DNA of 64,000 nucleotides from Streptomyces sp. NBC_00539 (GTDB lineage: Bacteria > Actinomycetota > Actinomycetes > Streptomycetales > Streptomycetaceae), in assembly GCF_036346105.1 (NCBI RefSeq), contig NZ_CP107811.1, positions 2,052,501 to 2,116,500 of the forward strand, written 5' to 3'. The translations under genes were made by a program, and so were the position numbers. Shown piece after piece: positions 15,614-56,267 of the stretch (its first letter is position 1; each line of letters starts with the position of its first letter). The notes beneath the pieces were generated by a model. It was not told the DNA's origin. It saw only the letters and a program-made list of their open reading frames with translations, and ran no database searches.

Positions 15614-15702
15614 GAAGCGCGAACGTCGCCCACTGCGCCGCCCCGGCACCGATAATCGGGGCAGAACGCTGCACCGCAGTCGCACGAAGGGAAGGCCGCG
15701 CC

Positions 15703-15936
15703 ATGGGGTCCCAGCAGGAGAAGGACGAGCTGTACGCGCTCGACATCAGCGGCGTCGAGTGGGAGGGCCCGCCCGGGACCAGCCCCGACGAGGAGCGCGT
15801 GGAGATCGCGAAGCTGCCCGACGGGGCGGTGGCGATGCGGTCGTCGCTGGACCGGGAGACCGTGCTGCGGTACACGGCGGCCGAGTGGGAGGCGTTCGTG
15901 CTCGGCGCCCGGGACGGCGAGTTCGACCTGCGCTGA
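15703..15936 (+). CDS. DUF397-like small protein
   Basis: 77 aa, ATG at 15703 with GAAGGGAAGG upstream. The C-terminal half (VEIAKLPDGAVAMRSS then LRYTAAEWEAFVLGARDGEFD) fits DUF397, small actinobacterial proteins usually encoded beside an Xre-type regulator. No such regulator is adjacent here; it sits between eccC and the WXG100 genes, 89 bp after eccC. Function unknown. Confidence 0.75.
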   Translation: MGSQQEKDELYALDISGVEWEGPPGTSPDEERVEIAKLPDGAVAMRSSLDRETVLRYTAAEWEAFVLGARDGEFDLR

Positions 15937-15962
15937 CCCGGTTCGGGACGGCTCGGAACGCG

Positions 15963-15997
15963 CGAAGGGGCGCGCCCGGTGCGGGCGCGCCCCTTCG
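15963..15997. terminator. Bidirectional terminator in the type VII locus
   Basis: Perfect 15-bp arms 15963-15977 and 15983-15997 with a 5-nt loop, between the plus-strand DUF397 gene and the converging esxB-like gene. Confidence 0.85.
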
Positions 15998-16013
15998 GGG
16001 TGTGGCGGGGGAC

Positions 16014-16322
16014 TCAGTAGGCCTCGGTGAACAGGCGCGAGGCCTTGATGTCCGTGGCGTGGTAGTCGCCCTTGCCGCGCTCGATGAGCTGGGCGACGGT
16101 CTCCAGCTGCTTGTGCATGTGGTCGGCGGCGGCCTTGTACTTCTTCTGGAGGGCGACGTACTCGCGGTGCGCCTCACCGTCCCAGGTGTCCGTGACGACC
16201 TTGACGGCGGTGTCCATCTCGTCCAGGTCCTTGAGGATGTTCTGCGACACCACGCGGATGCGGTCCGCCATCTGCTGGACGCTTTCGTACCTGACCTTGG
16301 TGTGGCCGTCGTTACCGGACAT
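16014..16322 (-). CDS. esxB: WXG100 protein, EsxB (CFP-10)-like
   Basis: 102-aa helical-hairpin substrate of the ESX system. Seen: W47-D48-G49 at the turn and a C-terminal YHATD at residues 87-91, which fits the YxxxD/E export signal carried by the CFP-10-like partner. ATG at 16322. It lies 45 bp downstream of the esxA-like gene on the same strand, so the two are presumably co-expressed and form a heterodimer recognised by EccC through the YxxxD tail. Confidence 0.9.
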   Translation of the reverse strand: MSGNDGHTKVRYESVQQMADRIRVVSQNILKDLDEMDTAVKVVTDTWDGEAHREYVALQKKYKAAADHMHKQLETVAQLIERGKGDYHATDIKASRLFTEAY

Positions 16323-16367
16323 GGTCTACTCCTTCGCGCTGGGGCGTTGTGGGCAACGGGGCCTTGA

Positions 16368-16688
16368 TCAGAGGTTGTTGAGGCCGGACTTGTTGGCGGC
16401 GGCGAAAGCCTGACGCACGTCCTCGTCCTGGGCGTTGCTCAGGTTCTTCGTCTCCGACACCGCGTGGTGCAGGACGCCGAGCAGCCGGCGGATCTTGTCG
16501 TGGTCGGTGTTGATGTCCTCCTGCGCCTTGACGAAGCCTCCGGCGCCCACGCCGGTCCAGCCCGCGCTCACCGTCGCGATGATGTCGGCCAGTTCACGCG
16601 ACTGCCGCGACACGGCCTCGGCCGTCTCGGAGATCCTGTTGGCCGCCTTGACGACCGGATCGTCCGCAAGTCCGAAATTGCTCGTCAT
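16368..16688 (-). CDS. esxA: WXG100 protein, EsxA (ESAT-6)-like
   Basis: 106 aa. W44-T45-G46 at the hairpin turn between two amphipathic helices; no tyrosine and therefore no YxxxD/E signal, consistent with being the partner that depends on the EsxB-like protein for targeting. ATG at 16686-16688 preceded by GAGGAGC; the frame continues upstream but without a better start. A 213-bp gap to mycP likely holds the esxAB promoter. Confidence 0.9.
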   Translation of the reverse strand: MTSNFGLADDPVVKAANRISETAEAVSRQSRELADIIATVSAGWTGVGAGGFVKAQEDINTDHDKIRRLLGVLHHAVSETKNLSNAQDEDVRQAFAAANKSGLNNL

Positions 16689-16901
16689 CCGAAGCTCCTC
16701 ACTTCTCAATTCGCCGGCCGAACCGGCGGACTGCGTGGCGGAGCGGGTGTTCCCGGCGCGGAAACGAGCACGCGCCCACGGAAATCCCCCTCCGCTCCAC
16801 GCCATCCCCCGATCACAGTCGTGAAGCCTGCCGTCACTCTAGCCAGTTCACCGCGGGGCCCCAACACCGGTACTGCGTAGCGCCGGTGAACCGGTAGGCG
16901 G

Positions 16902-18155
16902 TCACCGCACGGGGCGTCGGCGCCTGCGGGCGTCGCGCATGACGGTGGCGGTACCCGCGATGACGGCGATGAGTACGACGGCGGTTCCCAGGGCGTACGT
17001 ACCGAACCGCTCCTCCCGCTCCTGCACGGTCTCGGTGAGGTGCAGCCCGGCCGCTTGGGGCGCGGCCGCGGGCGGCGGGCCCGGGTCCGGGACGGGGGCC
17101 TTGGGGGCTTCGCCGTCCTGGGTGAGGGCCCGTACCGGGTCGACCACGCCCCAGCCGACGTAGTCGTCGTGGCCGTTCACGGAGCGTTCGGCGGTGTTCT
17201 CGATCTGCCAGACGATCTGCTGCACGCTCCAGTCCGGGTGCGCGGCCCGCAGCAGGGCGGCGACTCCGGCGACGTAGGGGGCGGAGAAGCTCGTGCCGTT
17301 GTCCAGGCACTGGCCGAAGCCGGGGACGGTGGAGACCATGTCGACGCCGGGGGCCGCGACGCCGATGAAGTCGCCGGGCTGGGAGAAGGCGGCCCGCTCG
17401 TTGTTGCGGTCGGAGGCGGCGACGGCGAGGACCCCGGGGAAGGCCGCCGGGTAGGTCTTGCGCTTCTGCCCGGTGAGGCCGTCGTTGCCGGCGGAGGCGA
17501 CGACCACGACCTTCGCTTCGATGGCCCGCTGGACCGCCTTGGCGAGGTCGGAGTCCGCGCTCAGCGGGACGTCGGTGTCCTGGGAGATGTTGATGACCTG
17601 GGCGCCCTTGGACACCGCGTGGTCGATCGCCTGGGCGAGGGTGGCGGCGTTGCCGTTGCCCTGCCCGTCGTTCTGCCGGATCGGGATGACGGTGGCTTCC
17701 GGGGCGAGACCCACGAAGCCGGTGCCGGCCTGGGGTCGGGCGGCGATCAGGCCGGCGACCCTGGTGCCGTGACCCACGGTGTCGTTGGTGCCGTCACCGC
17801 CCTTGGGGTCGACGAAGTCCTTGCCCGCGCCGGTGTCGAGGGCGCCGCCGAGCTGCGGGTTGACCCGGTCCACGCCGGTGTCGATCACCGCGACGCGGAC
17901 GCCCTTGCCGCGGGTGCGGGCCCACAGGGCGTCCAGGAGCAGCCGTTGCAGGGCCCAGGGCCGGTCGGCGATCTGCTGCTTCATCGGGAAGGTGCACTCG
18001 CCCCCGCCGGCGAGGGACAGCGCGCCCGGGGACCCCGGGGCGGCGGGGCCCGTACCGCACGCCGCGACGAGGGCCAGGACTGAGCTCAGGAGCAGGCTCC
18101 GCACGGCCGTGGCGCGGCGCCCGGACGGTTGCTGTGGCATCGGCGGCATCCTCAC
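16902..18155 (-). CDS. mycP: Type VII secretion-associated subtilisin-like protease (mycosin)
   Basis: S8 serine protease of ESX loci. Catalytic triad visible as D92 (VIDTGVD), H129 (GHGTRVAG) and S289 (NGTSFSAP), with oxyanion N224 (SAGND). 417 aa. The N-terminal signal ends in a lipobox-like VAAC (C33), and a transmembrane helix near residues 388-408 followed by an arginine-rich tail anchors the C-terminus, the usual mycosin topology; proline-rich linker between. GTG at 18153-18155 overlaps the eccB stop (GTGA). ATGs at 18149 and 18140 are alternative starts. Confidence 0.92.
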   Translation of the reverse strand: MRMPPMPQQPSGRRATAVRSLLLSSVLALVAACGTGPAAPGSPGALSLAGGGECTFPMKQQIADRPWALQRLLLDALWARTRGKGVRVAVIDTGVDRVNPQLGGALDTGAGKDFVDPKGGDGTNDTVGHGTRVAGLIAARPQAGTGFVGLAPEATVIPIRQNDGQGNGNAATLAQAIDHAVSKGAQVINISQDTDVPLSADSDLAKAVQRAIEAKVVVVASAGNDGLTGQKRKTYPAAFPGVLAVAASDRNNERAAFSQPGDFIGVAAPGVDMVSTVPGFGQCLDNGTSFSAPYVAGVAALLRAAHPDWSVQQIVWQIENTAERSVNGHDDYVGWGVVDPVRALTQDGEAPKAPVPDPGPPPAAAPQAAGLHLTETVQEREERFGTYALGTAVVLIAVIAGTATVMRDARRRRRPVR

Positions 18156-19729
18156 GAACCCTGCGGCTGACGGGCGGAGTTGGTGTCCAGGCGCGGCCCC
18201 TTGGAGAGGAACTCCGACCAGGCGATGGGCACCATGGCCGGGGTGACCCCGCCGTAGCCCAGCCGGATCTGCGCCTGGCTCGCCTCGGGCCGGCCGTCGC
18301 CCGCGCCCGGCTGCTTGGGGCCGCCGGCGCCGATCCCGGACTGCTCCGCGTCACTGTCGCCGTTGGCCTGGACGGCGTACCGCAGACCCGTGTCGGTGAC
18401 CAGGAACGTGGAGCCGCCGGCCGTGGTCTGGCGGCCCTGGACCTGGGTGTAGAGCAGGCCCGAGCCCGGGGTGACGTACGCGCCGGTACCGCCGGCGGTG
18501 ATGTCGACGGGGAAGCCGGTGCCCGCCCAGGTGCTCAGCGTGGGGTTGCCCTGGCCGTCGACGGAGCGCAGCACCGCGCAGACCGTGTCGCGCAGGGCGG
18601 CGCCGGACGCCGGGCCGGGGGCGGCGGTCACCCGGTTGACCTGGGAGACCCTGCGCTGGGGCCACTTGGCGTCGTTCTTGAACGGGGTGGCGTCCGGGTT
18701 GAGGGACTGCAGGTCCACCTCGTGGGCCTTGCCGTGCATGTCGAGGCCGTCGGCCGCGGGCGCCGAGATCAGCAGCCAGGCCACGAACTCCGAGACGGGT
18801 GCGACCCGGTCGGGCAGGACGACGTAGTACTGGGTGCCGGAACCGGTCTGGGCGGTCAGCACCATGCCGACCTTGCTGTCGGCGGTGCCCAGACCCTGCA
18901 CGGCGGCCTTCTCGCCCGCCCTGCCGGGCAGTTGCGGGAAGGCCAGGTCGTCGCCGGGGGTGAGGGTGGCGAGCCACTGTTCGGTGACCGGCTGGGGAGT
19001 GGCGCCGGTGCCGACCAGGGCCGTCGTGATCGTCGCCGCGTCGGCGTTGCCCTCGGGGAACCGGTACTTGGTGCCGGCCGCGTCGACCAGGTAGCGCTCC
19101 TTGGCGCCGCCGGTGTTCTGCACGTACAGCACCTGCGTCTCGGTGGTCTTGCGGCCGTCGTCCATCAGACGCGCCTCCCGGTCGGCGAGGACGAACGCGG
19201 CGGTCTGGACGCCCTTGCCGTTGCCGCCGGGCTGCTGGCAGACGGCCCAGCGCTTGGCCTTGCCCGCGTCGGCCGGGGCGGGCAGCCGGTCGGGGGCGTA
19301 GGGGATGCCTATGATCGGGCCCCGCGGCGGCTTGCCCGCGTCAAGGATCTTGTCGTCGATCTGGACGACCTTGAACTTCGCGGGATCCAGCAGCAGTCGG
19401 GCGGACGCCAGGTTCAGCACGGGGTGCAGCCTGGTCTGGTCCTTGCCGTTGACCTTCGTGGTCAGGACCACGTACCGGGTGGTCGACTGCTTGCCGACGA
19501 TGACCTGCGTGCCGGGCTCGTCCCAGCCCTTGGGCGCCTGCGGTTTGAACATCCCCCAGGCGCCGAAGCCCGCGACCACGAGGGCGCCGACCACCAGGCC
19601 GGGGACCACGGCGCGCAGCGGGCGGGGCGCGCCTTCCTCGGTACCGGTGGCGGAGGGCTGGAGGAACGCTGCCACCGTGCGCCGCTTCGCGAAGGTGTAC
19701 GCGTTGAGTTCATCACGCCGTGATGCCAT
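18152..19729 (-). CDS. eccB: Type VII secretion protein EccB
   Basis: Bitopic membrane core subunit with a large extracytoplasmic domain. Seen: MASRRDELNAYTFAKRRTVA, typical for EccB, one transmembrane helix around residues 43-62, then the repeat-rich periplasmic-type domain with LNLASARLLL and a conserved cysteine pair (C169 region and DTVCAVL). 525 aa, family length. ATG at 19727-19729. Coupled to mycP by a GTGA overlap; divergent from eccE across 250 bp. Confidence 0.93.
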   Translation of the reverse strand: MASRRDELNAYTFAKRRTVAAFLQPSATGTEEGAPRPLRAVVPGLVVGALVVAGFGAWGMFKPQAPKGWDEPGTQVIVGKQSTTRYVVLTTKVNGKDQTRLHPVLNLASARLLLDPAKFKVVQIDDKILDAGKPPRGPIIGIPYAPDRLPAPADAGKAKRWAVCQQPGGNGKGVQTAAFVLADREARLMDDGRKTTETQVLYVQNTGGAKERYLVDAAGTKYRFPEGNADAATITTALVGTGATPQPVTEQWLATLTPGDDLAFPQLPGRAGEKAAVQGLGTADSKVGMVLTAQTGSGTQYYVVLPDRVAPVSEFVAWLLISAPAADGLDMHGKAHEVDLQSLNPDATPFKNDAKWPQRRVSQVNRVTAAPGPASGAALRDTVCAVLRSVDGQGNPTLSTWAGTGFPVDITAGGTGAYVTPGSGLLYTQVQGRQTTAGGSTFLVTDTGLRYAVQANGDSDAEQSGIGAGGPKQPGAGDGRPEASQAQIRLGYGGVTPAMVPIAWSEFLSKGPRLDTNSARQPQGS

Positions 19730-19979
19730 GACCGCCTGCTTCTCGCCGCACGGCCCGGCGGACTCCCGTGCCCCGGGCCTCGATGATCGGACCGGGGACC
19801 TACTATGCCTCTTGACGGACGGTATGCACGGCCCGGGTAGGCTCGGTCGGCCGCCGCGCGGCCTGCGGACCGGCGCGGTCAGGGCTCTTCGGGGCGGATC
19901 CGGCAGACTTCGAGAGGGCGGCGGCGACCCGCCGCGCCGCAGCGTACGGGGCCCGCCCCCGGGATGGGGAGGTGCGCGA

Positions 19980-21266
19980 GTGACGGCCACCGCGACGCAG
20001 CCACGAACGGCCCCGGCGGCACCGGCCACACCGGCGCGCACCGGGGTCACACCGCATCCGCGGTCCACCCCGGGCCGGTTCGGGCCGTTCCGGCTGCAAC
20101 AGCTGGTGCTCCTCCAGATCGCGGCCGCCGCCCTGCTGGTGGCCTGGGTGGTGGAACCGCTGCTGCTGGTGCCCGCCGGGGTACTGGCGCTGGTCCTGGT
20201 GCCGCTCGCGCTCGTACGCCGGCACCAGCGCTCCCTGCCCGAGTGGATCGGGGGCGCGCTCGCCCTGCGCACGCGGCGCCGCCGGGCCGCGGCACGCTCC
20301 GTACCGGCCGGCGTCGAGCCGGGGCTGGCTCCGCTGGTCGAGGCCGAACCCGCCCTGCGGACGCTGACGTTCAGCGACCGTGACCGCCGGCCGGTCGGCA
20401 TGGTCGGCGACGGCACGTTCCTGACGGCCGTCGTCCAGGTGGACATGGACGCCACCGCCCTGCGGCCCGACCGGGGGACGCGCCCGCTGCCGCTGGGGCT
20501 CGTCCGGGACGTCCTCGAAGTCGACGGGATCCGGCTGGAGAGCGCCCAGTTGGTGCAGCACACGCAGCCGGCGCCCGCCCCGCACCTGCCGCCCCAGGCG
20601 ATGGCCACCCGCAACTACGCCCCGCTCCAGGCCAGTACGGGCGCGCCGGCGGTACGGCTGACGTGGATCGCGCTCAAGCTCGACCCGGAGCTGTGCCCGG
20701 AGGCGGTCACGGCGCGCGGCGGCGGACTGGGCGGCGCGCAGCGGTGCCTGGTGCGGATCGCGGACCAGCTGGCGAGCCGGCTGACCGGCGCCGGGTTCCG
20801 GGCGGTGGTGCTGACCGAGCAGGAGCTGACGGGCGCGCTGGCCACGTCCTCCTGCGCGAATCCGATGGCGATCACCCAGGCCGGCCGGTCCTCGGGCACG
20901 GGCCGCCGCACGGAGGAGACGGCGCGCACGTGGCGCTGCGACGACCGGCGGCACACGACGTACTGGATAGGCCGCTGGCCGCAGTTGGGCGGGGCGGGCG
21001 CGGCGGCGCTGCCGCAGTTCGTGGCGCTGCTCACGTCACTGCCCGCGCTCGCGACGAACTTCAGCCTGACGATCGCCCCCGCCGAGCGGCAGGGCGTGAC
21101 GCTGACCGGGCACGTTCGGGTGACGGGGCGCAGCGACGAGGAACTGGTGGCCGCCCGCCGCGAACTGGAGCGGACGGCGCGCGGCATCAGGACCGGGCTC
21201 GTCCGGCTGGACCGCGAACAGGTACCGGGCCTGCTGGCCTCGCTGCCACTGGGAGGAGCACGATGA
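19980..21266 (+). CDS. eccE: Type VII secretion protein EccE
   Basis: Peripheral membrane subunit of the ESX complex. 428 aa: proline/alanine-rich start, two adjacent transmembrane helices (about residues 40-75) and a soluble domain containing RNYAPLQAS and the conserved CDDRRHTTYWIGRWP stretch. GTG at 19980 has GGGGAGGTG upstream and agrees with the start of similarity. Overlaps the next gene by ATGA. Confidence 0.88.
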   Translation: MTATATQPRTAPAAPATPARTGVTPHPRSTPGRFGPFRLQQLVLLQIAAAALLVAWVVEPLLLVPAGVLALVLVPLALVRRHQRSLPEWIGGALALRTRRRRAAARSVPAGVEPGLAPLVEAEPALRTLTFSDRDRRPVGMVGDGTFLTAVVQVDMDATALRPDRGTRPLPLGLVRDVLEVDGIRLESAQLVQHTQPAPAPHLPPQAMATRNYAPLQASTGAPAVRLTWIALKLDPELCPEAVTARGGGLGGAQRCLVRIADQLASRLTGAGFRAVVLTEQELTGALATSSCANPMAITQAGRSSGTGRRTEETARTWRCDDRRHTTYWIGRWPQLGGAGAAALPQFVALLTSLPALATNFSLTIAPAERQGVTLTGHVRVTGRSDEELVAARRELERTARGIRTGLVRLDREQVPGLLASLPLGGAR

Positions 21267-21961
21267 GGGGCGGTTTCGGGCTGATCGGGCCGCGCCGCGA
21301 ACGGCACGTGGTCCCGGCGGCCGACCTGGACGCGCTGGCCCTGCCCGTCGCCGACGACGGCGTCGTCATCGGCGTGGACGCCGAGGGCCGTCCGGCGGTG
21401 CTGGGCGTCAACCGGCCCACGCCGTACGAGGTCACGCTGATCGGCGGCCTGTGGACGGCGCAGGTACTGGCGCTGCGCGCGGCGGCCACGGGGGCCCGGG
21501 TCGCGGTGGAGACCGGGCGCGGGCAGGCCTGGTCGGGGCTGGCCCAGGCCGCTGGCGGCGGCCAGCAGTGCGTGACCCTGCACGATGTGGGGCGGGTGCC
21601 GCCGCAGGGCGCGTCGGCCGGCAGCCCGGTGCTGGTGGTCCGGGACTGCGGGATGCGGCCGCCGCGCGGGCGGGTGGTGGCGGGGCCCTGGCAGTCGGTG
21701 CTGACGCTGCTGCCGTACCTGAGCCCGGCGGCGCCCCGGCTGATGGGCAACGCCTCGCTGGTGGGGGTGCAGCGGGTGTCGCCGGACGAGGCGGGGCAGG
21801 TCGGCCGCCTGATGCACCTTCCGCGGGCGGCGGTGGAGTCGCTGCCGACGCTGGGTGACGGGGTGACGCTGTGGTGCACGCCGAGGGACCGCAAGTTCGT
21901 CATGACGCAGGGCACGGACACCGAGACCGGCCTGTTGGGCGCCGCGCGGCGGATCGACTGA
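21263..21961 (+). CDS. Type VII locus protein, unknown function
   Basis: 232 aa, no family I can name. Soluble, alpha/beta-looking: short strands such as DGVVIGVDAEGRPAVLGVN and SPVLVVRDCGMRP alternate with helices; no signal peptide or membrane helix. ATG at 21263 overlaps the eccE stop (ATGA) and has GGGAGGAG upstream, so translation is coupled to eccE and a role in, or alongside, the secretion machine is likely. The segment QVLALRAAATGARVAVETGRGQ could be a nucleotide-binding-like beta-alpha unit but has no P-loop. Confidence 0.75.
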   Translation: MRGGFGLIGPRRERHVVPAADLDALALPVADDGVVIGVDAEGRPAVLGVNRPTPYEVTLIGGLWTAQVLALRAAATGARVAVETGRGQAWSGLAQAAGGGQQCVTLHDVGRVPPQGASAGSPVLVVRDCGMRPPRGRVVAGPWQSVLTLLPYLSPAAPRLMGNASLVGVQRVSPDEAGQVGRLMHLPRAAVESLPTLGDGVTLWCTPRDRKFVMTQGTDTETGLLGAARRID

Positions 21962-22098
21962 CGGCCGGGGCGGCGGCGCCGTGGGGGCCGTGAGCCCGGA
22001 CACGGGGTCGGGCGGGGCGACGCGGCGCGATTAGGCTGAGCGTGGGCGCGGCGTCGAGGTGGGCGCCTGACCGGTGTTCGACAGACCAGGAGGACTCA

Positions 22099-24342
22099 GT
22101 GAGCGGCGATCGGAACGAGAGGCGCGGCGGGACGTGGGACGTCCCGACGGACGATCAGTCCGATGCGGAGCCCGAGGTGACGGGCGAGTTCACCATCGAC
22201 TACACCCCTCCGGCCTGGTACACCCAGGGTGCGGCGCAGGCTCCTGCCGCGTCCGTGCCGGGGCTGCCGGAGGGCAGCGGCTTCGAACCGCACCGCCCGT
22301 CGGACGTGACCTCGCCGCCGACGATGCGGATCGCCCCCTCGGCCCCGCGTACGCCGTCGGCCGACGCCGTGGTGCCGCCGCAGGTGTTCACGACCGCTCC
22401 CCCGGCGGCACCGGCCGACCGGGCGCCGGTCGCCACCGCCGACCCGGTGGCGGCCCCGGCGCCTGCTCCGCAACAGGGGCCGCCGGCCGCTCCGGCTCCC
22501 GCCGCGGACCAGGTGGCCGTTCCGGCTGCCGACCCGGCTGCGGTGGCTGCTCCGGCTCCCGCCGCGGACCAGGCGCCGGTCGCGGACCAGGCACCGGTCG
22601 CGGACCAGGTGCCGGTCGCGCCTGCGCCTGCGGCCGAAGACGCGGCCGCGCCGGCGGTGTTCACGATCGCTCCCCCGGCGGTCCCGGAGCCGGTGTTCCC
22701 CCCGGCGCCCGCTCCCGCGCCGCCGGTCGCCCAGGCACCGGATCCGGTGGTCCCCGCCGCTCCGGCCCCCGCCCCGGACCCGGTGGCCGCTCCCGCGCCG
22801 GTGGAGCCGACCCCGCCCCAGGCGGCGGCCCCCGCTCCCGCCCCGGTCGACGCGGCTGCGGCAGATGCCGTGCCGCCCGTACAGCTGTACCGGACCGCCA
22901 CGCCGCCCGAGGGGACACCCGTGCCCCCCGCCGCGTACGCCCCGGCCCCGCCCGGGCCCTACGCGCCGCCCGCCACCCCCGCGGAGACCGCCGTACCCGC
23001 CGCCGAGCCCCCGTTCGCCGAAGCGGGGGGCGGGCTGCCGGCGCTGCCGCCCACGTACCAGGCCCCGGACGGCTACGGGTTCCCGCCGCCGGCCCCCGCT
23101 CCGGCGCAGCCCGCGCCGCAGCCCCAGCCCGCGCCGCAGCCCCAGCCGTCGCACGACCCCCGTTCCGGCGGCCAGTGGCCCCAGCCCCCGTACCAGGCCG
23201 GCCCGGCCACCGGCGGGGCGCCGCTCGGTTACACCGCCGCCGTCGAGCTGTCCTCCGAGCGCCTGCTGCGCGCCAAGCAGAAGCCCAAGCCCGCCCGCTC
23301 CGGCTTCCGCTTCGGCGGCAAGGCCGCCGAGGCCGAGCGCCTGCGCAAGCTCGAACTCATCCGTACCCCGGTCATGTCCTGCTACCGCATCGCCGTGATC
23401 AGCCTCAAGGGCGGTGTCGGCAAGACCACCACGACCACCGCGCTCGGCGCGACCCTCGCCACCGAGCGCCAGGACAAGATCCTGGCCATCGACGCGAACC
23501 CGGACGCCGGAACCCTCGGCCGCCGCGTCCGGCGCGAGACCGGGGCGACCATCCGCGACCTCGTCCAGGCGATCCCGTACCTCAACTCGTACATGGACAT
23601 CCGGCGGTTCACCTCGCAGGCGCCCTCCGGCCTGGAGATCATCGCCAACGACGTGGACCCGGCCGTCTCGACCACGTTCAACGACGAGGACTACCGCCGC
23701 GCCATCGAGACGCTGGGCCGCCAGTACCCGATCATCCTCACCGACTCCGGCACGGGTCTGCTCTACTCCGCCATGCGCGGCGTCCTGGACCTCGCCGATC
23801 AGCTGATCATCATCTCGACCCCCTCCGTGGACGGTGCGAGCAGCGCCAGCACCACCCTCGACTGGCTGTCCGCACACGGGTACGGCGACCTCGTCTCCCG
23901 CTCCCTCACCGTCATCTCGGGGGTCCGCGAGACCAGCAAGATGATCAAGATCGAGGACATCGTGCAGCACTTCGAGACCCGCTGCCGCGGCGTCGTCGTG
24001 GTGCCGTTCGACGAGCACCTCGCGGCCGGCGCCGAAGTGGACCTCGACCTGATGCGGCCCAAGACCCGCGAGGCGTACTTCAACCTCTCCGCGCTGGTCG
24101 CCGAGGACTTCATCCGCGCCCAGCAGCAGGCCCCGCAAGGCCACTGGGGAGCGCCCCAGCCCGCCGCCCAGCCGCACGCCGCCCCGCCACAGCAACAGCC
24201 GCCGTACCAGCAGCCGCAGGCACCCCAGCCCTACGGCCAGCCGTACCCACAGCCCGGCCAGCCCTGGCAGCCCGCGCAGCAACAGCCCCCGCAACACCAG
24301 CCGCAGCCCGGTCAGCCGCCGCGCGACCCCCGGCTGGGCTGA
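22099..24342 (+). CDS. MinD/ParA-family ATPase with long Pro/Ala-rich N-terminus (EspI-like)
   Basis: 747 aa. Residues 1 to about 370 are low-complexity Pro/Ala/Gln sequence with local repeats; about 430-680 is a deviant-Walker ATPase domain: [10 protein letters not shown] (P-loop), [13 protein letters not shown], and a switch-like LTDSGTG; the C-terminus is Gln/Pro-rich. Architecture matches EspI of mycobacterial ESX-1, a regulator/secretion-associated ATPase. GTG at 22099 with AGGAGGA upstream. It ends the plus-strand eccE operon before a strong terminator. DNA partitioning is an alternative role, but no parB-like partner or site is seen. Confidence 0.85.
22510..22640 (+). repeat. 18-bp coding repeats in the EspI-like gene
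   Basis: The codons for the hexapeptide [12 protein letters not shown] are repeated three times in tandem (around 22567-22620), with related PAADQVAV units just before. Likely length-variable linker sequence. Confidence 0.6.
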
Positions 24343-48783: not shown

Positions 48784-50727
48784 TCAGCGCAGTGGACGGT
48801 GCACGTTTTCCTTCTGTGAGGGGCCGGGGGTGGCGTCCGCGATCCACGGGCCGTCGCCCGAGGGGTCGAGGACGCCCTCCTCCAGCCAGGTGTAGGTGCC
48901 GGAGAGGACTCCCGCGACGACCTTGCGGTCCAGGTCGTCGGTGTTGGACCAGAGCCGGCCGAAGAGTTCCTCGACGCGGATCCGGGACTGGCGGCAGAAC
49001 GCGTCGGCGAGCTGGTAGGCCTCGCGGCCGTGTTCGCCGGTGGCCCGCAGGTGCTCGGCGCGGACGCAGGCCGCGCTCATCGCGAAGAGTTCCGCCCCGA
49101 TGTCGACGATACGGCCGAGGAAGCCCTGCTTGGTCTCCATGCGGCCCTGCCAGCGGGCCATCGCCATGAACGTCATCCGGGCGAGTTTGCGGGCGCTGCG
49201 TTCGACGTACCGCAGGTGGGTGGCGAGGTCGGGGTGGCCGGCCGGGTGGAACTCCCGGTAGGTGCCGGGCACCTGCCCCGCGCCGGTGGCGAGCTGGGGC
49301 AGCCAGCGGGCGTAGAACCCGGCGGCGCGGGCTCCTGCCCTGGCCTTGTCGCCGAGGTCCTTCTCCGGGTCGATCAGGTCACCGGCGACCGACAGGTGGG
49401 CGTCGACGGCTTCCCGGGCGATCAGCAGGTGCATGATCTCGGTCGAGCCCTCGAAGATGCGGTTGATGCGCAGGTCCCGCAGCAGCTGCTCGGCGGGAAC
49501 GGCCCGTTCACCACGCGCGGCGAGCGACTCGGCGGTCTCGAAGCCGCGTCCGCCGCGGATCTGGACCAGCTCGTCGGCCATCAGGCAGGCCATCTCGGAG
49601 CCGTAGAGCTTGGCGAGGGCGGCTTCGATGCGGATGTCGTTGCGGTCCTCGTCGGCCATCTGGGAGGCGAGGTCGACCACGGCCTCCAGGGCGAAGGTGG
49701 TCGCCGCGATGAAGGAGATCTTCGCGCCCACCGCCTCGTGCCGTGCGACCGGCCGGCCCCACTGCTCGCGGACCCCCGACCACTCACGGGCGATCTTGAG
49801 GCACCACTTCCCGGCGCCGACGCACATCGCGGGCAGCGAGAGGCGTCCGGTGTTCAGCGTGGTGAGCGCGATCTTCAGGCCGGCGCCCTCGGCGCCGATC
49901 CGCTGCGCGGCCGGGACCCGTACGCGGTGGAAGCGCGTGACGCCGTTCTCCAGACCGCGCAGGCCCATGAAGGCGTTGCGGTTCTCGACGGTGATGCCGG
50001 GCGAGTCGGCCTCCACGACGAAGGCGGTGATCCCGCCGCGGTGGTTCTCGCTCTTGGGGACCCGGGCCATAACCACGAGCAGGTCGGCCACGACCCCGTT
50101 GGTGGTCCAGAGCTTCACCCCGTCGAGTACGTACGCCTCCTCCCCGTCCTCCGTGACCGGGACCGCCGTGGTGGCCAGGCGGGCCGGGTCGGAGCCCACG
50201 TCGGGCTCGGTGAGGAGGAAGGCGCTGATGGCGCTGGTGGCACAGCGGGGCAGGTAGGCGTCCTTCTGCTCCTGGGTGCCGAACATCTTGAGCGGCTGGG
50301 GCACGCCGATCGACTGGTGGGCGGACAGGAGCGCCCCGATGGCGGGGCTGACGGAGCCGACGAGCGCGAGCGCCTTGTTGTAGTACACCTGGGTGAGGCC
50401 GAGCCCCCCGTACTTGGGGTCGATCTTCATCCCGAGGGCGCCGAGCTCCTTGAGGCCGCGCACGGTCTCGTCGGGGATCTTCGCCTCGCGCTCGATGCGC
50501 GGGCCGTCGATCTCGCGCTCGCAGAAGTCCCGCAACCGGGCGAGGAAGGCCTCGCCGCGCCGGACGTCCTCGTCGGCGGGAAGCGGGTGGGGGTGGATCA
50601 GGTCGAGCCGGAACCGTCCCAGGAACAGTTCCTTGGCGAAGCTGGGCTTGCGCCAGTCCTGCTGCCGGGCCGCTTCCGCGACCTGCCTGGCCTCGCGCTC
50701 GGTCACCTTGGGCTGTGTTGCGGACAT
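48784..50727 (-). CDS. Acyl-CoA dehydrogenase (FadE-type, long form)
   Basis: FAD-dependent alpha,beta-dehydrogenation of acyl-CoA in fatty-acid oxidation. 647 aa: N-terminal extension, then the ACAD domains with AFLLTEPDVGSDPARL, LWTTNGVVADLLVV, NTGRLSLPAMCVGAGK, and the IFEGSTEIMHLLIAREAV segment; a C-terminal helical extension of about 170 aa lengthens it beyond classical ACADs. ATG at 50725-50727 with GAGGTGAG upstream. Single gene; substrate chain length unknown. Confidence 0.93.
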   Translation of the reverse strand: MSATQPKVTEREARQVAEAARQQDWRKPSFAKELFLGRFRLDLIHPHPLPADEDVRRGEAFLARLRDFCEREIDGPRIEREAKIPDETVRGLKELGALGMKIDPKYGGLGLTQVYYNKALALVGSVSPAIGALLSAHQSIGVPQPLKMFGTQEQKDAYLPRCATSAISAFLLTEPDVGSDPARLATTAVPVTEDGEEAYVLDGVKLWTTNGVVADLLVVMARVPKSENHRGGITAFVVEADSPGITVENRNAFMGLRGLENGVTRFHRVRVPAAQRIGAEGAGLKIALTTLNTGRLSLPAMCVGAGKWCLKIAREWSGVREQWGRPVARHEAVGAKISFIAATTFALEAVVDLASQMADEDRNDIRIEAALAKLYGSEMACLMADELVQIRGGRGFETAESLAARGERAVPAEQLLRDLRINRIFEGSTEIMHLLIAREAVDAHLSVAGDLIDPEKDLGDKARAGARAAGFYARWLPQLATGAGQVPGTYREFHPAGHPDLATHLRYVERSARKLARMTFMAMARWQGRMETKQGFLGRIVDIGAELFAMSAACVRAEHLRATGEHGREAYQLADAFCRQSRIRVEELFGRLWSNTDDLDRKVVAGVLSGTYTWLEEGVLDPSGDGPWIADATPGPSQKENVHRPLR

Positions 50728-51194: not shown

Positions 51195-53279
51195 ATGAAG
51201 GGTCTACCGTTCCAGCTCGAAATCATTGAAGCCGACACCAGCTGGATCGTGTCGTGCGCTTCCGAGTGCGGCGAAGCACTGATCCGCGTGCCGGCACCAT
51301 ATTCCGAGACCGACCTGCAATCCGCCCTTTCCAGGGTGGAGCTGTCACTTACCAAATCGTACAGTTCCCTGCCCGTTCGCGGCGCTCCCGCTACCGAAAG
51401 ACCGGTCCGCGAATTCGGGGAACGCCTCACGCAGACCGTCTTCCAGAACGACATTTCCACTCAGTTCGACCTGTGCCGCCGCGAGGCGCGCAGGCATGGC
51501 GTCCCGGTGCGGATCCTGCTGCGGACGAACGGCCCGCATGTTGCGTCCATTCCGTGGGAGTACCTCGTCGATCCGTCTCGCGATGACTACCTGGCGCTTC
51601 GTGTCCCCATCGTCCGGTACTTGCGGCTGATGAACCCGGCACCGCCACTTCCCCTTACGCTCCCCTTGCGCGTACTGGGCATTACGGCGAATCCGCGCGA
51701 CCTTCCCCTGCTGGACGGAAAACGGGAGGAGGGGCAGATATCGCAGGCGCTCGAACGGTACAGCTCCGACAACGTGGACGTCCACTGGCTGCCCGGGGAT
51801 CAATGGCAGGATCTGGCGAGAGAGCTGCGGTTTGGCTCCTGGCACGTCCTGCACTGCGTCAGCCACGGCGGATTCGACGAGGAAAGGAATGCCGGTTTCA
51901 TTCAGTTGTCCGGTGCCGACGGGGCTGCCAAAAAGATATATGCCAGTGACTTTGAGAGGCTGATCACCGACAGCCCGAACCTCCGTCTCATCGTGCTGAA
52001 TTCCTGTGAATCCGCAGTCAGCGGGTCCGACGACGTCTTCGCGGGTACCGCCGCCAATCTCGTCCGTGCCGGCGTGCCGGCCGTCGTCGCCATGCAGTAC
52101 GAGATCACCGACAGGGCCGCCCTCGTCTTCGCCTCCTCGTTCTACGAGCGGATCGCAGCAGGACTTCCCGTGGACCGCGCGGTGACCCTCGCGCGTGAAG
52201 ACGTGAAGATGGACTTGGACAGCCTTGAGTGGGCCACTCCCGTGTTGTTCCTCGCATCCGACGAAACCCGGATCTTCTCGCTGCCGCACGCACCGCCGAA
52301 CTCACAAGGGCCGCATCTGCGGACCACGGTGAACGTGCCCCCGCCCCCGGCCGCGCCGACGGCCCCCACGCGAGGACCCAGCCTCTCCCACCGCGCTCTG
52401 CTCGCGGAGATCGGTCCGTGCAACGACCTGGCGCTCGGACCGTCCGACCTCCTTGCCGCCGCTTGCCGCGATGGCGTGGTCCGCGTCGTGGACGGAGTCC
52501 ATGGCGGCCTCGTGGCGCAGTGCCTGCCCGTGCAGCGCGAGAGCCCGATCCGTGTGGTCTGGGGCCCTTGGCGACGGCATGTGGCCAGTCGGCACAACGA
52601 CGGAACCGTAATCGTGTGGGACCTCCAGACCTCGAACCCGGTGCGCGTGATGAACGTGGGAGGAGTGGGCTCCGCCGTGGCATTCAGCGCGGACGGCCAC
52701 TGGCTCGCCGCGACCGTCCGGGACCACATCTACATCTACAACTCGTGGGGTGCCCGCGTACGGGATTTGGCGGCCTGGCCGGGGAAGGAGCCCAAAGGCT
52801 GGCAGCGCCGGGGTGGCCGCGGCAGGCTCGGCGCCCTTCGTTTCGCGCCGGGAGACCGGCATGTGGTCGTGGCGACCGGTGACGGCGTGGTACGCCAATT
52901 GGACGTGGCCGGGCAGCCGGTGATGACCTGGCCGCAACCCCACCCCATACTCTGCCTCGCGCTCACCGAACACCTCCTCGCCACCGGCTGCACGGACGGC
53001 CGGGTACGCCTCTGGTCCTGGGACGGCCGTCTCTTGCGGCGCACGGAGTACGGGCGCCAACCCTCCCATCTGGCCTTCTCCCCCGACTCCTCGGCGCTGG
53101 CCATCTCCGACGACGAGGGAATGGTCACCTTGTGGGACCTGAAGACGGGGGAGTTGACCGTTGCGGCGCAGCTGCCGCACCGGCTCGCGGGGCTGGCCTT
53201 CCTCGACGGTGGAAAAGGTCTGGTGACGGGCACCGGGGCGGGTGCCGTCGAGCGCTGGACGCTGCCTCATCGGGGATAG
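51195..53279 (+). CDS. CHAT-domain caspase-like protease fused to a WD40 propeller
   Basis: 694 aa. Residues 1-360 form a CHAT (caspase HetF associated with TPRs) module: WEYLVDPSRDDYLALR, catalytic histidine H224 in VLHCVSHGGFD and catalytic cysteine C271 in VLNSCESAVSG, then GVPAVVAMQYEITD. A Pro-rich linker (about 360-400) leads to seven WD40-type blades (DGTVIVWD, DGVVRQLD, DGRVRLWSWD, EGMVTLWD etc.), one complete propeller. The domain pair suggests a sensor propeller controlling a peptidase, as proposed for bacterial conflict systems. ATG at 51195, GGAGGTG upstream. Codon choice is less GC-biased than neighbouring genes. First of four co-directional genes, 12 bp before the next. Confidence 0.88.
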   Translation: MKGLPFQLEIIEADTSWIVSCASECGEALIRVPAPYSETDLQSALSRVELSLTKSYSSLPVRGAPATERPVREFGERLTQTVFQNDISTQFDLCRREARRHGVPVRILLRTNGPHVASIPWEYLVDPSRDDYLALRVPIVRYLRLMNPAPPLPLTLPLRVLGITANPRDLPLLDGKREEGQISQALERYSSDNVDVHWLPGDQWQDLARELRFGSWHVLHCVSHGGFDEERNAGFIQLSGADGAAKKIYASDFERLITDSPNLRLIVLNSCESAVSGSDDVFAGTAANLVRAGVPAVVAMQYEITDRAALVFASSFYERIAAGLPVDRAVTLAREDVKMDLDSLEWATPVLFLASDETRIFSLPHAPPNSQGPHLRTTVNVPPPPAAPTAPTRGPSLSHRALLAEIGPCNDLALGPSDLLAAACRDGVVRVVDGVHGGLVAQCLPVQRESPIRVVWGPWRRHVASRHNDGTVIVWDLQTSNPVRVMNVGGVGSAVAFSADGHWLAATVRDHIYIYNSWGARVRDLAAWPGKEPKGWQRRGGRGRLGALRFAPGDRHVVVATGDGVVRQLDVAGQPVMTWPQPHPILCLALTEHLLATGCTDGRVRLWSWDGRLLRRTEYGRQPSHLAFSPDSSALAISDDEGMVTLWDLKTGELTVAAQLPHRLAGLAFLDGGKGLVTGTGAGAVERWTLPHRG

Positions 53280-53291
53280 AGGGAGAAAGTC

Positions 53292-53723
53292 ATGGAAAGT
53301 CCCGAGGTCGAGATCTTCTGGCCCTCGTCGCTCCCCGCCGAACCGGCCCTGGAAGGGCAAGATGCACTGCGCGAGGCCGGTGTTCCGACGACGTGCATGC
53401 TGCGGCCCACCCGGAGGGGGGCGGGCGACGTCGTTACGGTCCTGGTAACGACCGCTGTCATGCAGCCGTTCCTCAGCACTCTGTTCCAGCTCCTCGCCAA
53501 AGAGGCCCACACGGGATTGAAGACCTTCGTGGACCGACTGCTGGCAGGCCACTCGGAAAGAGAACAGGCACCCGAGGGCGTCGTGTTCGAGTCGGCAACC
53601 GGTGGGCGGGTCACCTTCGGCGCAGGTCTGCCCGAGCGGGCCTACGAGGAGGCGGTCCGTCTGGACGCCTACGGCGACAGCTGGATCTGGGACCCACGAC
53701 GCTCGATGTGGACCCCTGCCTGA
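53292..53723 (+). CDS. Small partner of the CHAT-WD40 protein (EACC1-like layout), unknown
   Basis: 143 aa. Three parts: a variable N-terminus (VEIFWPSSLPAEPALEG), a central hydrophobic helix (about residues 46-68, VVTVLVTTAVMQPFLSTLFQLL) followed by an amphipathic helix, and a C-terminal strand-rich part (GVVFESATGGRVTFGAGLP) ending in an aromatic, tryptophan-rich tail. The order hydrophobic helix, then short beta strands recalls effector-associated constant component 1 (EACC1) proteins that accompany CHAT and trypsin effectors; this is resemblance of layout only. It could be the protease's substrate or a membrane-acting subunit. ATG at 53292 with GAGGGAGAAAG upstream. Confidence 0.6.
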   Translation: MESPEVEIFWPSSLPAEPALEGQDALREAGVPTTCMLRPTRRGAGDVVTVLVTTAVMQPFLSTLFQLLAKEAHTGLKTFVDRLLAGHSEREQAPEGVVFESATGGRVTFGAGLPERAYEEAVRLDAYGDSWIWDPRRSMWTPA

Positions 53724-53752
53724 GGGGTCCGGACGCAGAGAGGTGCGCAGCC

Positions 53753-54196
53753 ATGGCAGACCAACACCAGCCTCCTCCCCACGACGACAACTGGGGTCCG
53801 GAGACCCCTTGGCAGGAGCCGTTCATCGCACCGCAGCAGCCCCCGCCGTCCCAGTCTTCGCCTCCTTCGTCACCTCCTCCTGACGCGGAAGGCCGCCAGC
53901 AGCAGTGGGGAGCGGGAGTGCACAAAGGCCGCGCAGGAGCGCCGAGCTCCTACTTGACCCCTGCCATCCTCGTCACGCTCTTCTGCTTCCTGCCGACGGG
54001 GATCGCCGCCATCGTCTTCGCCTCACAGGTCCAAAGCAAATGGACCGTGGGTGACTTCGCGGGAGCCGCCGAAGCTTCGCGGAAGGCGAGGCTCTTCGTC
54101 ATCGTGAGTGTCGCGGTCGGCTTCCTGGCGTGGGTGGTCTTTCTTGCCATCGGCTTCGCCAGTGGGCCGAGCACAACCACCGCGCCGACGCCGTGA
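53753..54196 (+). CDS. CD225/dispanin family membrane protein
   Basis: 147 aa. Residues 1-60 are Pro/Gln/Ser-rich and presumably cytoplasmic; two helices follow (about residues 66-86 and 112-134) enclosing the conserved ASQVQSKWTVGDFAGAAEASRKAR loop that defines the dispanin/CD225 fold. Eukaryotic members are IFITM proteins; bacterial function is unknown. ATG at 53753 with GAGAGGTG upstream, 29 bp after the 143-aa gene. Overlaps the DUF2752 gene by GTGA. Confidence 0.88.
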   Translation: MADQHQPPPHDDNWGPETPWQEPFIAPQQPPPSQSSPPSSPPPDAEGRQQQWGAGVHKGRAGAPSSYLTPAILVTLFCFLPTGIAAIVFASQVQSKWTVGDFAGAAEASRKARLFVIVSVAVGFLAWVVFLAIGFASGPSTTTAPTP

Positions 54197-54627
54197 CCTC
54201 CCCACACGTCCGGGCCACCGGGCCGGCTCCCCGGGCTCCGACGGCGAAGACCCTCCGTGATGCCTGGCTGGGCGCGGCGATCTTCACAGCGGTCGCCGTC
54301 ATCGTGGGGCTCGTGGACCCCACCCGACCGGGACGGTTCCCGAGCTGTCCGTTCCGATCCCTTACGGGCTTCGACTGTCCGGGCTGCGGCAGCCTGCGCG
54401 CACTCCACGAGCTCATTCACGCCCACGTGGCAGCCGCGGCCGACTACAACCTGCTGCTGGTCGCGTTCTTGCCCTACGCCGCTGTCGTGTGGCTGCGTGC
54501 CGTCACCGGCCGGACCGGCCGCAGAGGCATCCCCCGGTGGTGGGGGCCGCGCCTTGCGCTCATCGTGGTCGTCCTGTGGACGGTGCTGCGCAATCTTCCC
54601 GTCTTCGGAGGTGTGCTTGCCGCTTGA
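54193..54627 (+). CDS. DUF2752 membrane protein
   Basis: 144 aa. Family hallmark CPFRSLTGFDCPGCGSLRALHELIH, with the C-x(10)-CPGCG cysteine cluster between the first helix (about residues 24-42) and two further helices (about 85-105 and 120-138). Function unknown; dispanin and DUF2752 genes are frequent neighbours in actinobacteria. GTG at 54193 overlaps the dispanin stop, so translation is coupled. Last gene of the cassette, followed by two hairpins. Confidence 0.87.
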   Translation: MTSPHVRATGPAPRAPTAKTLRDAWLGAAIFTAVAVIVGLVDPTRPGRFPSCPFRSLTGFDCPGCGSLRALHELIHAHVAAAADYNLLLVAFLPYAAVVWLRAVTGRTGRRGIPRWWGPRLALIVVVLWTVLRNLPVFGGVLAA

Positions 54628-54725: not shown

Positions 54726-54755
54726 TACCCCGTTCTCACAGGTGAGAACGGGGTA
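54726..54755 (+). terminator. First terminator hairpin after the CHAT cassette
   Basis: Perfect 14-bp arms TACCCCGTTCTCAC (54726-54739) and GTGAGAACGGGGTA (54742-54755) with a 2-nt loop by strict pairing. About 100 bp past the DUF2752 stop. Confidence 0.8.
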
Positions 54756-54821: not shown

Positions 54822-56267
54822 TCAGATGTCCAGGCCGGTGAGGACCAGGACGCGCTCGTAGGTGTAGTCGTCCATCGCGTAGCGGACGCCCTCGCGGCCG
54901 ACACCCGACTGCTTGACGCCGCCGTAGGGCATCTGGTCGGCGCGGTAGGACGGCGCGTCGCCGACGATCACGCCGCCGACCTCCAGCTCCCGGTGGGCGC
55001 GGAACGCGGTCTGGATGTCGCGGGTGAAGACGCCGGTCTGGAGACCGAACTTCGAGTCGTTGACAGCGGCGAAGGCCTCGTCGGTGTTCTCGACCCTCTG
55101 CAGCGTCAGGACCGGCCCGAAGATCTCCTCGACGGCGAGCTTCACGCCGTCCGGCAGGTCGGCGACGACGGTGGGCTCGTACGAGGCACCCTCGCGCTTG
55201 CCGCCGGTCAGCAGCTTGGCGCCGGCCGAGACGGCCTCTTCGACCCAGGACTCGACGCGCTTGGCGGCGTCCTCGGAGACCAGGGGGCCGACGTCGGTCG
55301 CGGAGTCGGAGGGGTCACCGGTGACCTGCGCCTGGACCTTGGCGACGACCTTCTCCACGAGGCGGTCGTACACGGAGGCGTCGGCGATCACGCGCTGCAC
55401 GGAGATGCAGGACTGGCCGGCCTGGTAGTTCGAGAAGGTCGCGATACGGGTCGCGGCCCAGTCGAGGTCGGCCTCGGAGGACCAGTCGGCCAGGACCACG
55501 GCCGCGGCGTTGCCGCCGAGCTCCAGGGTGCAGTGCTTGTGGGGCACCGACTGCTGGATGGCGTAGCCGACGGTGTCGGAGCCGGTGAAGGAGATGACGG
55601 GCAGGCGCTCGTCCTTCACCAGGGCCGGCATCTTGTCGTTCGCGACCGGCAGGACCGACCAGGAGCCGGCCGGCAGGTCGGTCTCGGCGAGCAGCTCGCC
55701 CAGGATCAGACCGGAGAGCGGGGTCGCCGGGGCCGGCTTGAGGATGATCGGCGCGCCGACGGCGATGGCGGGGGCCACCTTGTGGGCGCACAGGTTCAGC
55801 GGGAAGTTGAACGGGGCGATGCCGAGGACCGGGCCCTTGACGAAGCGGCGGGTCAGGGCGAGACGGCCGACGCCACCGGCGTCGGTGTCCAGGCGCTGGG
55901 CCTCTCCGCCGTTGAAGCGGCGGGCCTCTTCGGCGGCGAAGCGGAACACGGACACCGCACGGCCGACCTCACCGCGGGCCCACTTGATGGGCTTGCCGTT
56001 CTCGGCCGAGATCAGCTGGGCGATCTCCTCGGTGCGCTCGGCGAGGCGCTTCGAGACGTGGTCCAGGGCGGCGGCGCGCACGTGCGCGGGGGTCGCGGAG
56101 AACTCCGCCGTCACGGCGTGCGCCGCGGCCACGGCCTCTTCGACCTGGGCGTCGGTGGGCACGCTGACCGTGCCGACCAGCCGGCCGTCCCACGGGGAGT
56201 GGACGTCGAAGCTGTCCTCGCCGGTGGCCTGGCGGCCGGCGAGCCAGAAGGCGTGGGTGGAAGTCAT
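54822..56267 (-). CDS. NAD(P)-dependent aldehyde dehydrogenase, probable GABA/polyamine catabolism
   Basis: 481 aa ALDH superfamily enzyme. Seen: APFNFPLNLCAHKVAPAIAVG (cofactor region), FTGSDTVG, the general base in LELGGNAA, the nucleophile in YQAGQSCISVQR, and VEEIFGPVL. Context (gabT, PucR regulator, FAD oxidoreductase) favours succinate-semialdehyde or gamma-glutamyl-aminobutyraldehyde as substrate, oxidised to the acid; the sequence alone does not decide. ATG at 56265-56267, weak Shine-Dalgarno. A GGACAAGGAC motif, also found upstream of gabT, lies about 30-40 nt before the start. Confidence 0.88.
   Translation of the reverse strand: MTSTHAFWLAGRQATGEDSFDVHSPWDGRLVGTVSVPTDAQVEEAVAAAHAVTAEFSATPAHVRAAALDHVSKRLAERTEEIAQLISAENGKPIKWARGEVGRAVSVFRFAAEEARRFNGGEAQRLDTDAGGVGRLALTRRFVKGPVLGIAPFNFPLNLCAHKVAPAIAVGAPIILKPAPATPLSGLILGELLAETDLPAGSWSVLPVANDKMPALVKDERLPVISFTGSDTVGYAIQQSVPHKHCTLELGGNAAAVVLADWSSEADLDWAATRIATFSNYQAGQSCISVQRVIADASVYDRLVEKVVAKVQAQVTGDPSDSATDVGPLVSEDAAKRVESWVEEAVSAGAKLLTGGKREGASYEPTVVADLPDGVKLAVEEIFGPVLTLQRVENTDEAFAAVNDSKFGLQTGVFTRDIQTAFRAHRELEVGGVIVGDAPSYRADQMPYGGVKQSGVGREGVRYAMDDYTYERVLVLTGLDI

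Follow-up and report, generated by a model that had tools for sequence, protein, structure and literature searches.

A sporadically distributed Streptomyces gene cassette that joins a CHAT-WD40 protease to a dispanin and a DUF2752 protein

We analysed a window of 64,000 nucleotides from Streptomyces sp. NBC_00539, whose genome comprises 7.5 Mb in two contigs, and found at positions 51195-54627 of the window a cassette of four tightly spaced genes on the plus strand, which we tentatively read as a conflict-type switch. The cassette consists of a CHAT-WD40 protease gene (51195-53279, 694 amino acids), a gene for a 143-amino-acid partner protein (53292-53723), a gene for a dispanin, that is, a CD225/IFITM-like protein (53753-54196, 147 amino acids), and a gene for a DUF2752 membrane protein (54193-54627, 144 amino acids). 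The coordinates bear out the compact, co-directional arrangement that the original prediction had described for this locus, with 12 bases between the protease and partner genes, 29 bases between the partner and dispanin genes, and a GTGA overlap of the dispanin and DUF2752 genes. Pfam matches lie above the family cut-offs for CHAT (PF12770; 90.2 bits, cut-off 24) and WD40 (48.6 bits, cut-off 27) in the first protein, for CD225 (PF04505; 82.2 bits, cut-off 27.1) in the third and for DUF2752 (PF10825; 67.7 bits, cut-off 27) in the fourth.

The CHAT domain occupies amino acids 73-340 of the first protein (51411-52214), which would make it a caspase-superfamily protease with a predicted proteolytic activity. 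Residues H224 (codon 51864-51866) and C271 (codon 52005-52007), predicted to be intact, are both present and invariant in all seven aligned sequences (the window protein and six relatives), and by motif we take them to be the counterparts of H615 and C658 of Csx29. In the latter protease, H615 and C658 are the catalytic residues (PMC10028731). A linker that varies in length, and that is proline-rich in several members of the alignment, connects the CHAT domain to the C-terminal domain, which is WD40 in all seven aligned members (amino acids 398-689 in the window, 52386-53261). A structural model of the CHAT-WD40 protein, of medium confidence overall with a mean predicted local distance difference test score (pLDDT) of 70.1, contains 28 strands in this region, which we count as seven blades of four. 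In Foldseek the model most closely resembles WD40 propellers (WDR5, RACK1 and, from prokaryotes, 5yzv), in agreement with the seven-blade propeller proposed earlier.

The original prediction had named rare adjacency of the four homologues in other genomes as the observation that would count against it. In our neighbourhood survey the four genes instead adjoin at 12 distinct Streptomyces loci (the window, L012, L014, L015, L022, L023, L024, L025, L026, L028, L159 and L160), where the genes that are present keep their order and a single strand. Genes in the relatives were called with a simple script based on guanine-plus-cytosine (GC) frame together with tblastn and hidden Markov model matches; at L022 a contig end falls within the WD40 part and cuts off the CHAT part, and L026 lacks DUF2752. 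Two S. rimosus-type cassettes have a conserved extra gene of 252-284 amino acids directly upstream of the CHAT-WD40 gene (L015:5060-5818 and L014:11787-12641). Scanning genome contigs with an alignment of the partner returned seven loci, all in Streptomyces, with the CHAT-WD40 sequence, the partner and the dispanin in this order, followed by DUF2752 in six of the seven. In a sample of 121 Streptomyces genomes, the partner (E-value < 1e-20) was detected in five and CD225 in six, with both at the same place in five, a DUF2752 match beside them; a hand calculation that ignores kinship puts the chance of such a 5-of-6 genome overlap at ~3e-8. The counts from the wider genome searches are lower bounds, because at most 14 or 15 candidates were scored per genome.

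Judged by their neighbouring genes, the 12 loci represent ~7 different neighbourhoods, some of them common to close relatives. Across the loci, the four genes show strongly correlated pairwise identities (r 0.77-0.97; 0 of 2000 permutations as high), and for this reason the four genes appear, from their sequences, to have been inherited together. A constant arrangement at 12 separate loci, combined with this co-divergence, indicates an association that exceeds chance. The spread of the cassette across the genus is sporadic: CD225 was matched in 13 of 393 Streptomyces genomes, with 10 of these matches in the cassette and three elsewhere (G035, G540 and G659). Such a rare occurrence, in neighbourhoods that differ, fits poorly with a core developmental role, and we therefore consider it unlikely that the cassette is a developmental or cell-division regulator in which a HetF-kind CHAT protease would target membrane proteins while hyphae grow or sporulate, even if HetF is the NCBIfam model that the CHAT protein of the window matches best (E-value 1.5e-11; 43.4 bits, far under the cut-off of 1200) and membrane fusion and transport are regulated by dispanins in other settings (PMC11730294).

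The 143-amino-acid partner looks like an undescribed family with CHAT as its usual neighbour. The window protein matches no Pfam family (best E-value 0.26), the 12 partners together gave no accepted family in Pfam at E-values up to 1, and scans of three family members against NCBIfam returned no model over its cut-off. CofD, TetR_C_6, WXXGXW and other candidates produced weak matches (best E-value 0.012) and were not accepted. EACC1, the small protein of a known actinobacterial caspase system, was rejected by Pfam, by profile comparison and by gene order: the EACC1 domain PF19953 is absent from the Pfam matches of the 12 partners at E-values up to 1, hhalign gave probabilities of 0.9% and 0.4%, and a search of the window's whole genome found no PF19953 match, while the same search was positive for 19 of the 31 Streptomyces genomes examined. 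A low-confidence model of the partner (mean pLDDT 66.6) suggests an alpha/beta protein with the succession strand, helix, strands, long helix, strands, helix, which resembles the published EACC1 outline; a fold search gave no Protein Data Bank (PDB) match better than an E-value of 0.19, and a sequence search against the PDB gave four matches, including designed proteins and a histone, with a best E-value of 0.058. The partner had been described as membrane-type, a description not borne out by its one stretch of borderline hydrophobicity (Kyte-Doolittle value 1.74, residues 47-65), by the alpha/beta model or by its sequence, which is not that of EACC1.

A profile search of 247 Streptomyces genomes detected 25 instances of the partner domain, spread over 23 genomes. 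Sixteen of these 25 places, among them 14 of the 15 that score at least 70 bits, have CHAT no more than 3 kb away, hence the standing of CHAT as the usual neighbour. Eleven of these 16 CHAT-partner places are not cassettes; 10 inspected loci show no dispanin, and the eleventh (G559) was judged by coordinates alone. Three of the non-cassette places have an extra gene between CHAT and the partner, which is TPR-like in the one that was scanned (L145). Because the custom CHAT profile missed the divergent CHAT domain of L156, the CHAT neighbourhoods were rechecked with the Pfam model; at this locus the partner-like domain forms the C-terminal part of a 224-amino-acid protein directly upstream of a protein with a C-terminal CHAT domain (L156:6297-9889). 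The partner stands without CHAT nearby at nine of the 25 places, five of which were inspected, and nothing was recognised in the neighbourhoods of L152, L153, L155 and L164. At L154:5965-10285, a partner-like domain lies near an NB-ARC/STAND-like protein on the opposite strand, the match being below the Pfam cut-off. A phylum-wide search, which scored nine candidates per genome and so does not establish absence outside Streptomyces, found the partner in two cassette genomes and as one weak match (G261, 20.4 bits) inside a gene that reads as purE-like. The cassette also adds a CHAT-associated protein family in Streptomyces that matches no Pfam model in 12 members.

The other half of the cassette is also found on its own. 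Hydropathy analysis shows two clear hydrophobic stretches in the dispanin, whose CD225 domain lies at 53942-54142, and three in the DUF2752 protein, which carries a CPGCG motif. Across the phylum, CD225 occurs in 33 of 396 genomes at 40 places, and we inspected 34 loci that cover 35 of the 38 non-cassette places (G165, G247 and G198 were left out). DUF2752 directly follows the dispanin on the same strand at 21 of the 34 loci (20 by profile, L060 by coordinates); at L041 it lies 1.5 kb from the dispanin, and the other 12 loci show none on that strand. Custom profiles found neither CHAT nor the partner at these 34 loci, and the Pfam CHAT model found none near the dispanin in the 31 genomes concerned, the nearest match on a shared contig being more than 350 kb away, with many of the genomes fragmented. 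The dispanin and DUF2752 are therefore a separate pair that is common in the phylum, and the cassette combines two pairs that also exist apart, CHAT with the partner and dispanin with DUF2752. The idea that the dispanin travels with the protease as a conserved unit is upheld for the cassette loci, with the qualification that each pair has a life outside it.

DUF2752 itself is common in Streptomyces (118 of 121 genomes), and in the three genomes that we looked at a non-cassette copy lies, without a dispanin, among genes that we read as trp/his biosynthesis genes. Three such trp/his-region copies stand beside a small membrane protein with an HGHTPAAWTG-like start (L116:4895-5266, L117:4835-5365 and L118:4991-5365). 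In a DUF2752 tree, the nine cassette proteins included form one cluster (support 83/89; 86% of 200 bootstrap trees), and these three non-cassette copies make up a branch of their own.

As it exists without the protease, the dispanin-DUF2752 pair must have a function of its own, and it might then be the input of the system rather than its output. The pair would be a membrane sensor of envelope damage or phage entry, signalling through the dispanin tail to a CHAT-WD40 protease with targets elsewhere, either the partner or host proteins. The occurrence of CHAT with the partner alone agrees with this arrangement, a sequence motif in the dispanin tail (below) is compatible with either direction, and for EACC1 systems a membrane-associated sensor that activates the caspase has been proposed, together with auto-proteolysis (PMC7159879, Kaur et al. 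2020). Our data do not separate input from output, but operons of proteases with membrane effectors are the better documented precedent (PMC9612521), and we regard a sensor role of the pair as somewhat doubtful compared with the pair acting as the output under control of the protease.

Cassette dispanins carry a proline-rich tail ahead of CD225, and 10 of the 12 have in it the motif W-[GD]-[PG]-x(1-3)-[TS]-P-[WYF], which in the window reads WGPETPW from W14 to W20 (53792-53812). The exceptions are L012 (WGPDPL) and L022 (WDP...TPF, with a longer spacing). None of 36 other dispanins (33 sequences from the 34 phylum loci plus L016, L161 and L162) has a WGPxTPW-like motif. Of the looser patterns, [DEGNS]W[GD] is found in all 12 cassette dispanins and in 2 of the 36 others, and [TS]P[WYF] in 11 of the 12 and in 0 of the 36. 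Since the pattern was written after viewing the cassette sequences, the 12 sequences represent ~7 lineages and 33 of the 36 comparison dispanins come from other genera, we treat the motif as a lead, albeit a specific one. It nevertheless gives the best hint in the sequences that the dispanin has a link to the protease or to the propeller and is not a passenger. Two unrelated pairs joined once by chance and carried together ever since would explain all 12 loci with a single event, in line with the separate existence of both pairs and with the absence of DUF2752 from L026; yet order and strand have been kept at the 12 loci despite lowest pairwise identities of 37-53%, depending on the gene, and the motif is confined to the cassette in our comparison, so that we find such a passenger origin highly improbable.

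The double cysteine of the first helix, which is a prominent dispanin motif and no strict requirement (PMC3282796), reads Cys-Phe in 11 of the 12 cassette dispanins, as in some other dispanins, and L026 has no cysteine there. The tail seems, by sequence, to be a variable and system-specific part of dispanins. By reading, several non-cassette dispanins have N-terminal zinc-ribbon-like (CxxC...CxxC) or DUF2510-like parts (L040, L042, L043, L044, L054, L050, L051, L056, L057 and L061). In Streptomyces G540, whose genome has no CHAT match, the gene for a TIR-domain protein is followed on its own strand, after 174 bases, by that for a dispanin of 74 amino acids (L162:6936-8162); conflict-like loci may have recruited dispanins repeatedly.

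In the window, the cassette is flanked by genes that we read as an acyl-CoA dehydrogenase, fadE (48784-50727), and a succinate-semialdehyde dehydrogenase, gabD (54822-56267), both core-like. Among 24 relatives' loci matching fadE (L087-L110, including one from G013, which carries the cassette at another site), the gap between gabD and fadE measures 177-283 bases in eight and 587 and 1101 bases in two, and in 14 gabD lies beyond the stretch examined. Because the two genes are so closely spaced in eight of the 24 loci, the cassette is most likely an insertion between them. At L159 (G763) the cassette sits between the same two neighbours, and this locus also has the perfect 28-base palindrome that in the window (54727-54754) separates the cassette from the convergent downstream gene and may act as a terminator. 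Further away, positions 11654-24342 of the window presumably represent a type VII secretion locus, with an EccC-like ATPase, two small WXG100-like proteins, and mycosin- and EccB-like genes.

Compared with L159, the ratio of nonsynonymous to synonymous substitution rates (dN/dS) is 0.11 for CHAT-WD40, 0.22 for the partner, 0.76 for the dispanin and 0.43 for DUF2752, and compared with L023, L024 and L012 it ranges from 0.22 to 0.47 at dS values of 0.75-1.23. By these ratios, the protease and partner are clearly constrained and the dispanin is fast-evolving. The lower GC content noted originally is real in the window (67.3% in the cassette versus 73.0% in the rest); third-position GC spans 0.77-0.82 in the cassette genes and averages 0.945 over 46 other genes, a contrast that is biased because the script that called those other genes favours high third-position GC.

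Since the four genes form a conserved unit made of two component pairs, diverge together, are spread sporadically, and include a protease with its catalytic residues in place and a dispanin with a specific motif, we suggest that the cassette is a sporadically spread caspase/conflict-type switch in which the WD40-CHAT protease controls the dispanin-DUF2752 membrane pair, and we assign this reading a probability of roughly 0.4. The conflict role is an analogy with caspase/EACC1 conflict systems, to which the layout is similar. The WD40 propeller would sense or scaffold, the attached CHAT cysteine protease would be the switch, the 143-amino-acid partner would be a constant co-factor (an inhibitor, an activator or the first substrate), and the dispanin-DUF2752 pair would be the output module. 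The WGPxTPW-like tail motif could be a docking or cleavage site through which CHAT-WD40 holds or releases the membrane pair. Upon a trigger, most likely a phage or another invader, the activated CHAT domain would cut the partner or the dispanin tail, and this proteolysis would free the dispanin-DUF2752 pair to alter the membrane, such that the infection is stopped or the hyphal compartment is killed.

Several observations weigh against this proposal. No datum directly indicates phage defence: a PADLOC scan of the four proteins gave only partial matches of the first (SAVED_CHAT, E-value 4.7e-12; BovA, 5.2e-7; HEAT-ARM_XIII, 9.2e-6) and no match to the proteins of a known anti-phage system beyond the shared CHAT or repeat part. 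All seven aligned members retain the WD40 part, and conflict systems often swap such parts. L026, if functional, does without DUF2752, the dN/dS of 0.76 against the closest relative points to weak constraint on the dispanin, and the motif carries the reservations given above. Low GC does not serve as a general mark of foreign origin, which we rejected, as the cassette lies below its surroundings at seven of the 12 loci and is equal or higher at five (L022, L026, L014, L015 and L028). The partner was not found in the plasmid collection or in viral contigs. Searches of the latter gave one weak CHAT relative (L165), and a faecal phage record gave one weak dispanin match; three plasmid records (Arthrobacter, Tolypothrix and Nostoc) have CHAT relatives at E-values of 1e-30 or better, matching the CHAT half only, and in the one inspected (Arthrobacter) custom profiles found no partner, dispanin or DUF2752 nearby.

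A conserved operon that ties a dispanin and DUF2752 to a caspase-type protease provides a concrete, testable hypothesis on the role of both in bacteria, with the catalytic residues and the seven-residue tail motif as targets for mutation. In a wider version, dispanins and DUF2752 proteins could be membrane effectors of a caspase-type-protease immune switch, and the partner could found a new constant component of actinobacterial conflict systems, a generalisation that we put forward with considerable doubt. Dispanins have been proposed as ancestors of the animal antiviral IFITMs (PMC3282796, PMC4488726); if the wider version is true, the link between IFITM-family proteins and antiviral immunity already exists in bacteria.

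That a dispanin with a CHAT protease had not been described as a functional unit was part of the original prediction, and we found no such description in the literature searched, which includes few subscription papers or preprints and no supplements. Within it, we found no paper on DUF2752, nothing on CHAT domain and WD40 in Streptomyces, and nothing relevant by title on CD225 with phage and bacteria or on dispanins in Streptomyces; the main texts of Kaur et al. 2020 and of its 2021 follow-up mention no dispanin and no CD225, and that of 2020 no DUF2752.

Among the closest known counterparts of the cassette is the two-gene EACC1 system, which is likewise actinobacterial and sets a caspase-superfamily protease with a C-terminal extra domain beside a small constant partner (PMC7159879). 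The cassette differs in that its partner has neither a Pfam nor a profile match to EACC1, two further genes encode membrane proteins, WD40 is the extra domain in all seven aligned members, and the partner lies 3' of CHAT at the 11 loci with both on the contig, whereas the small gene of the EACC1 system is 5'. The model for EACC1-associated caspases, NF047832, has no match in the window protein and scores 14.4 bits in the homologue of L014 (cut-off 140). Protease-gasdermin operons, which include CHAT proteases, similarly place a caspase-like or CHAT protease beside a membrane-acting protein (PMC9612521); here the membrane module is instead a dispanin with DUF2752, and the Pfam matches listed for its four proteins include no gasdermin family. 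In Craspase, the TPR-CHAT protease Csx29 cuts the locus-encoded Csx30, so that a CHAT endopeptidase under a sensor has its substrate in the same locus (PMC10028731), as predicted for cleavage in the cassette, where WD40 takes the place of TPR and no CRISPR effector is among the four genes. SAVED-CHAT (PADLOC PDLC02016) matches the CHAT part (E-value 4.7e-12), but the listed Pfam matches of the cassette proteins include no SAVED domain. As in other bacterial dispanins and IFITM homologues, the cassette dispanin has a CD225 domain and two hydrophobic helices with a G-D motif between them (PMC3282796, PMC4488726), and it differs from them in its specific tail motif, its operon with a protease and the Cys-Phe of its first helix. 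Overall, the partner family, the membrane module and the motif, which we found described nowhere in the literature searched, occur here in a system of a known kind, an actinobacterial caspase-type cassette with a small partner.

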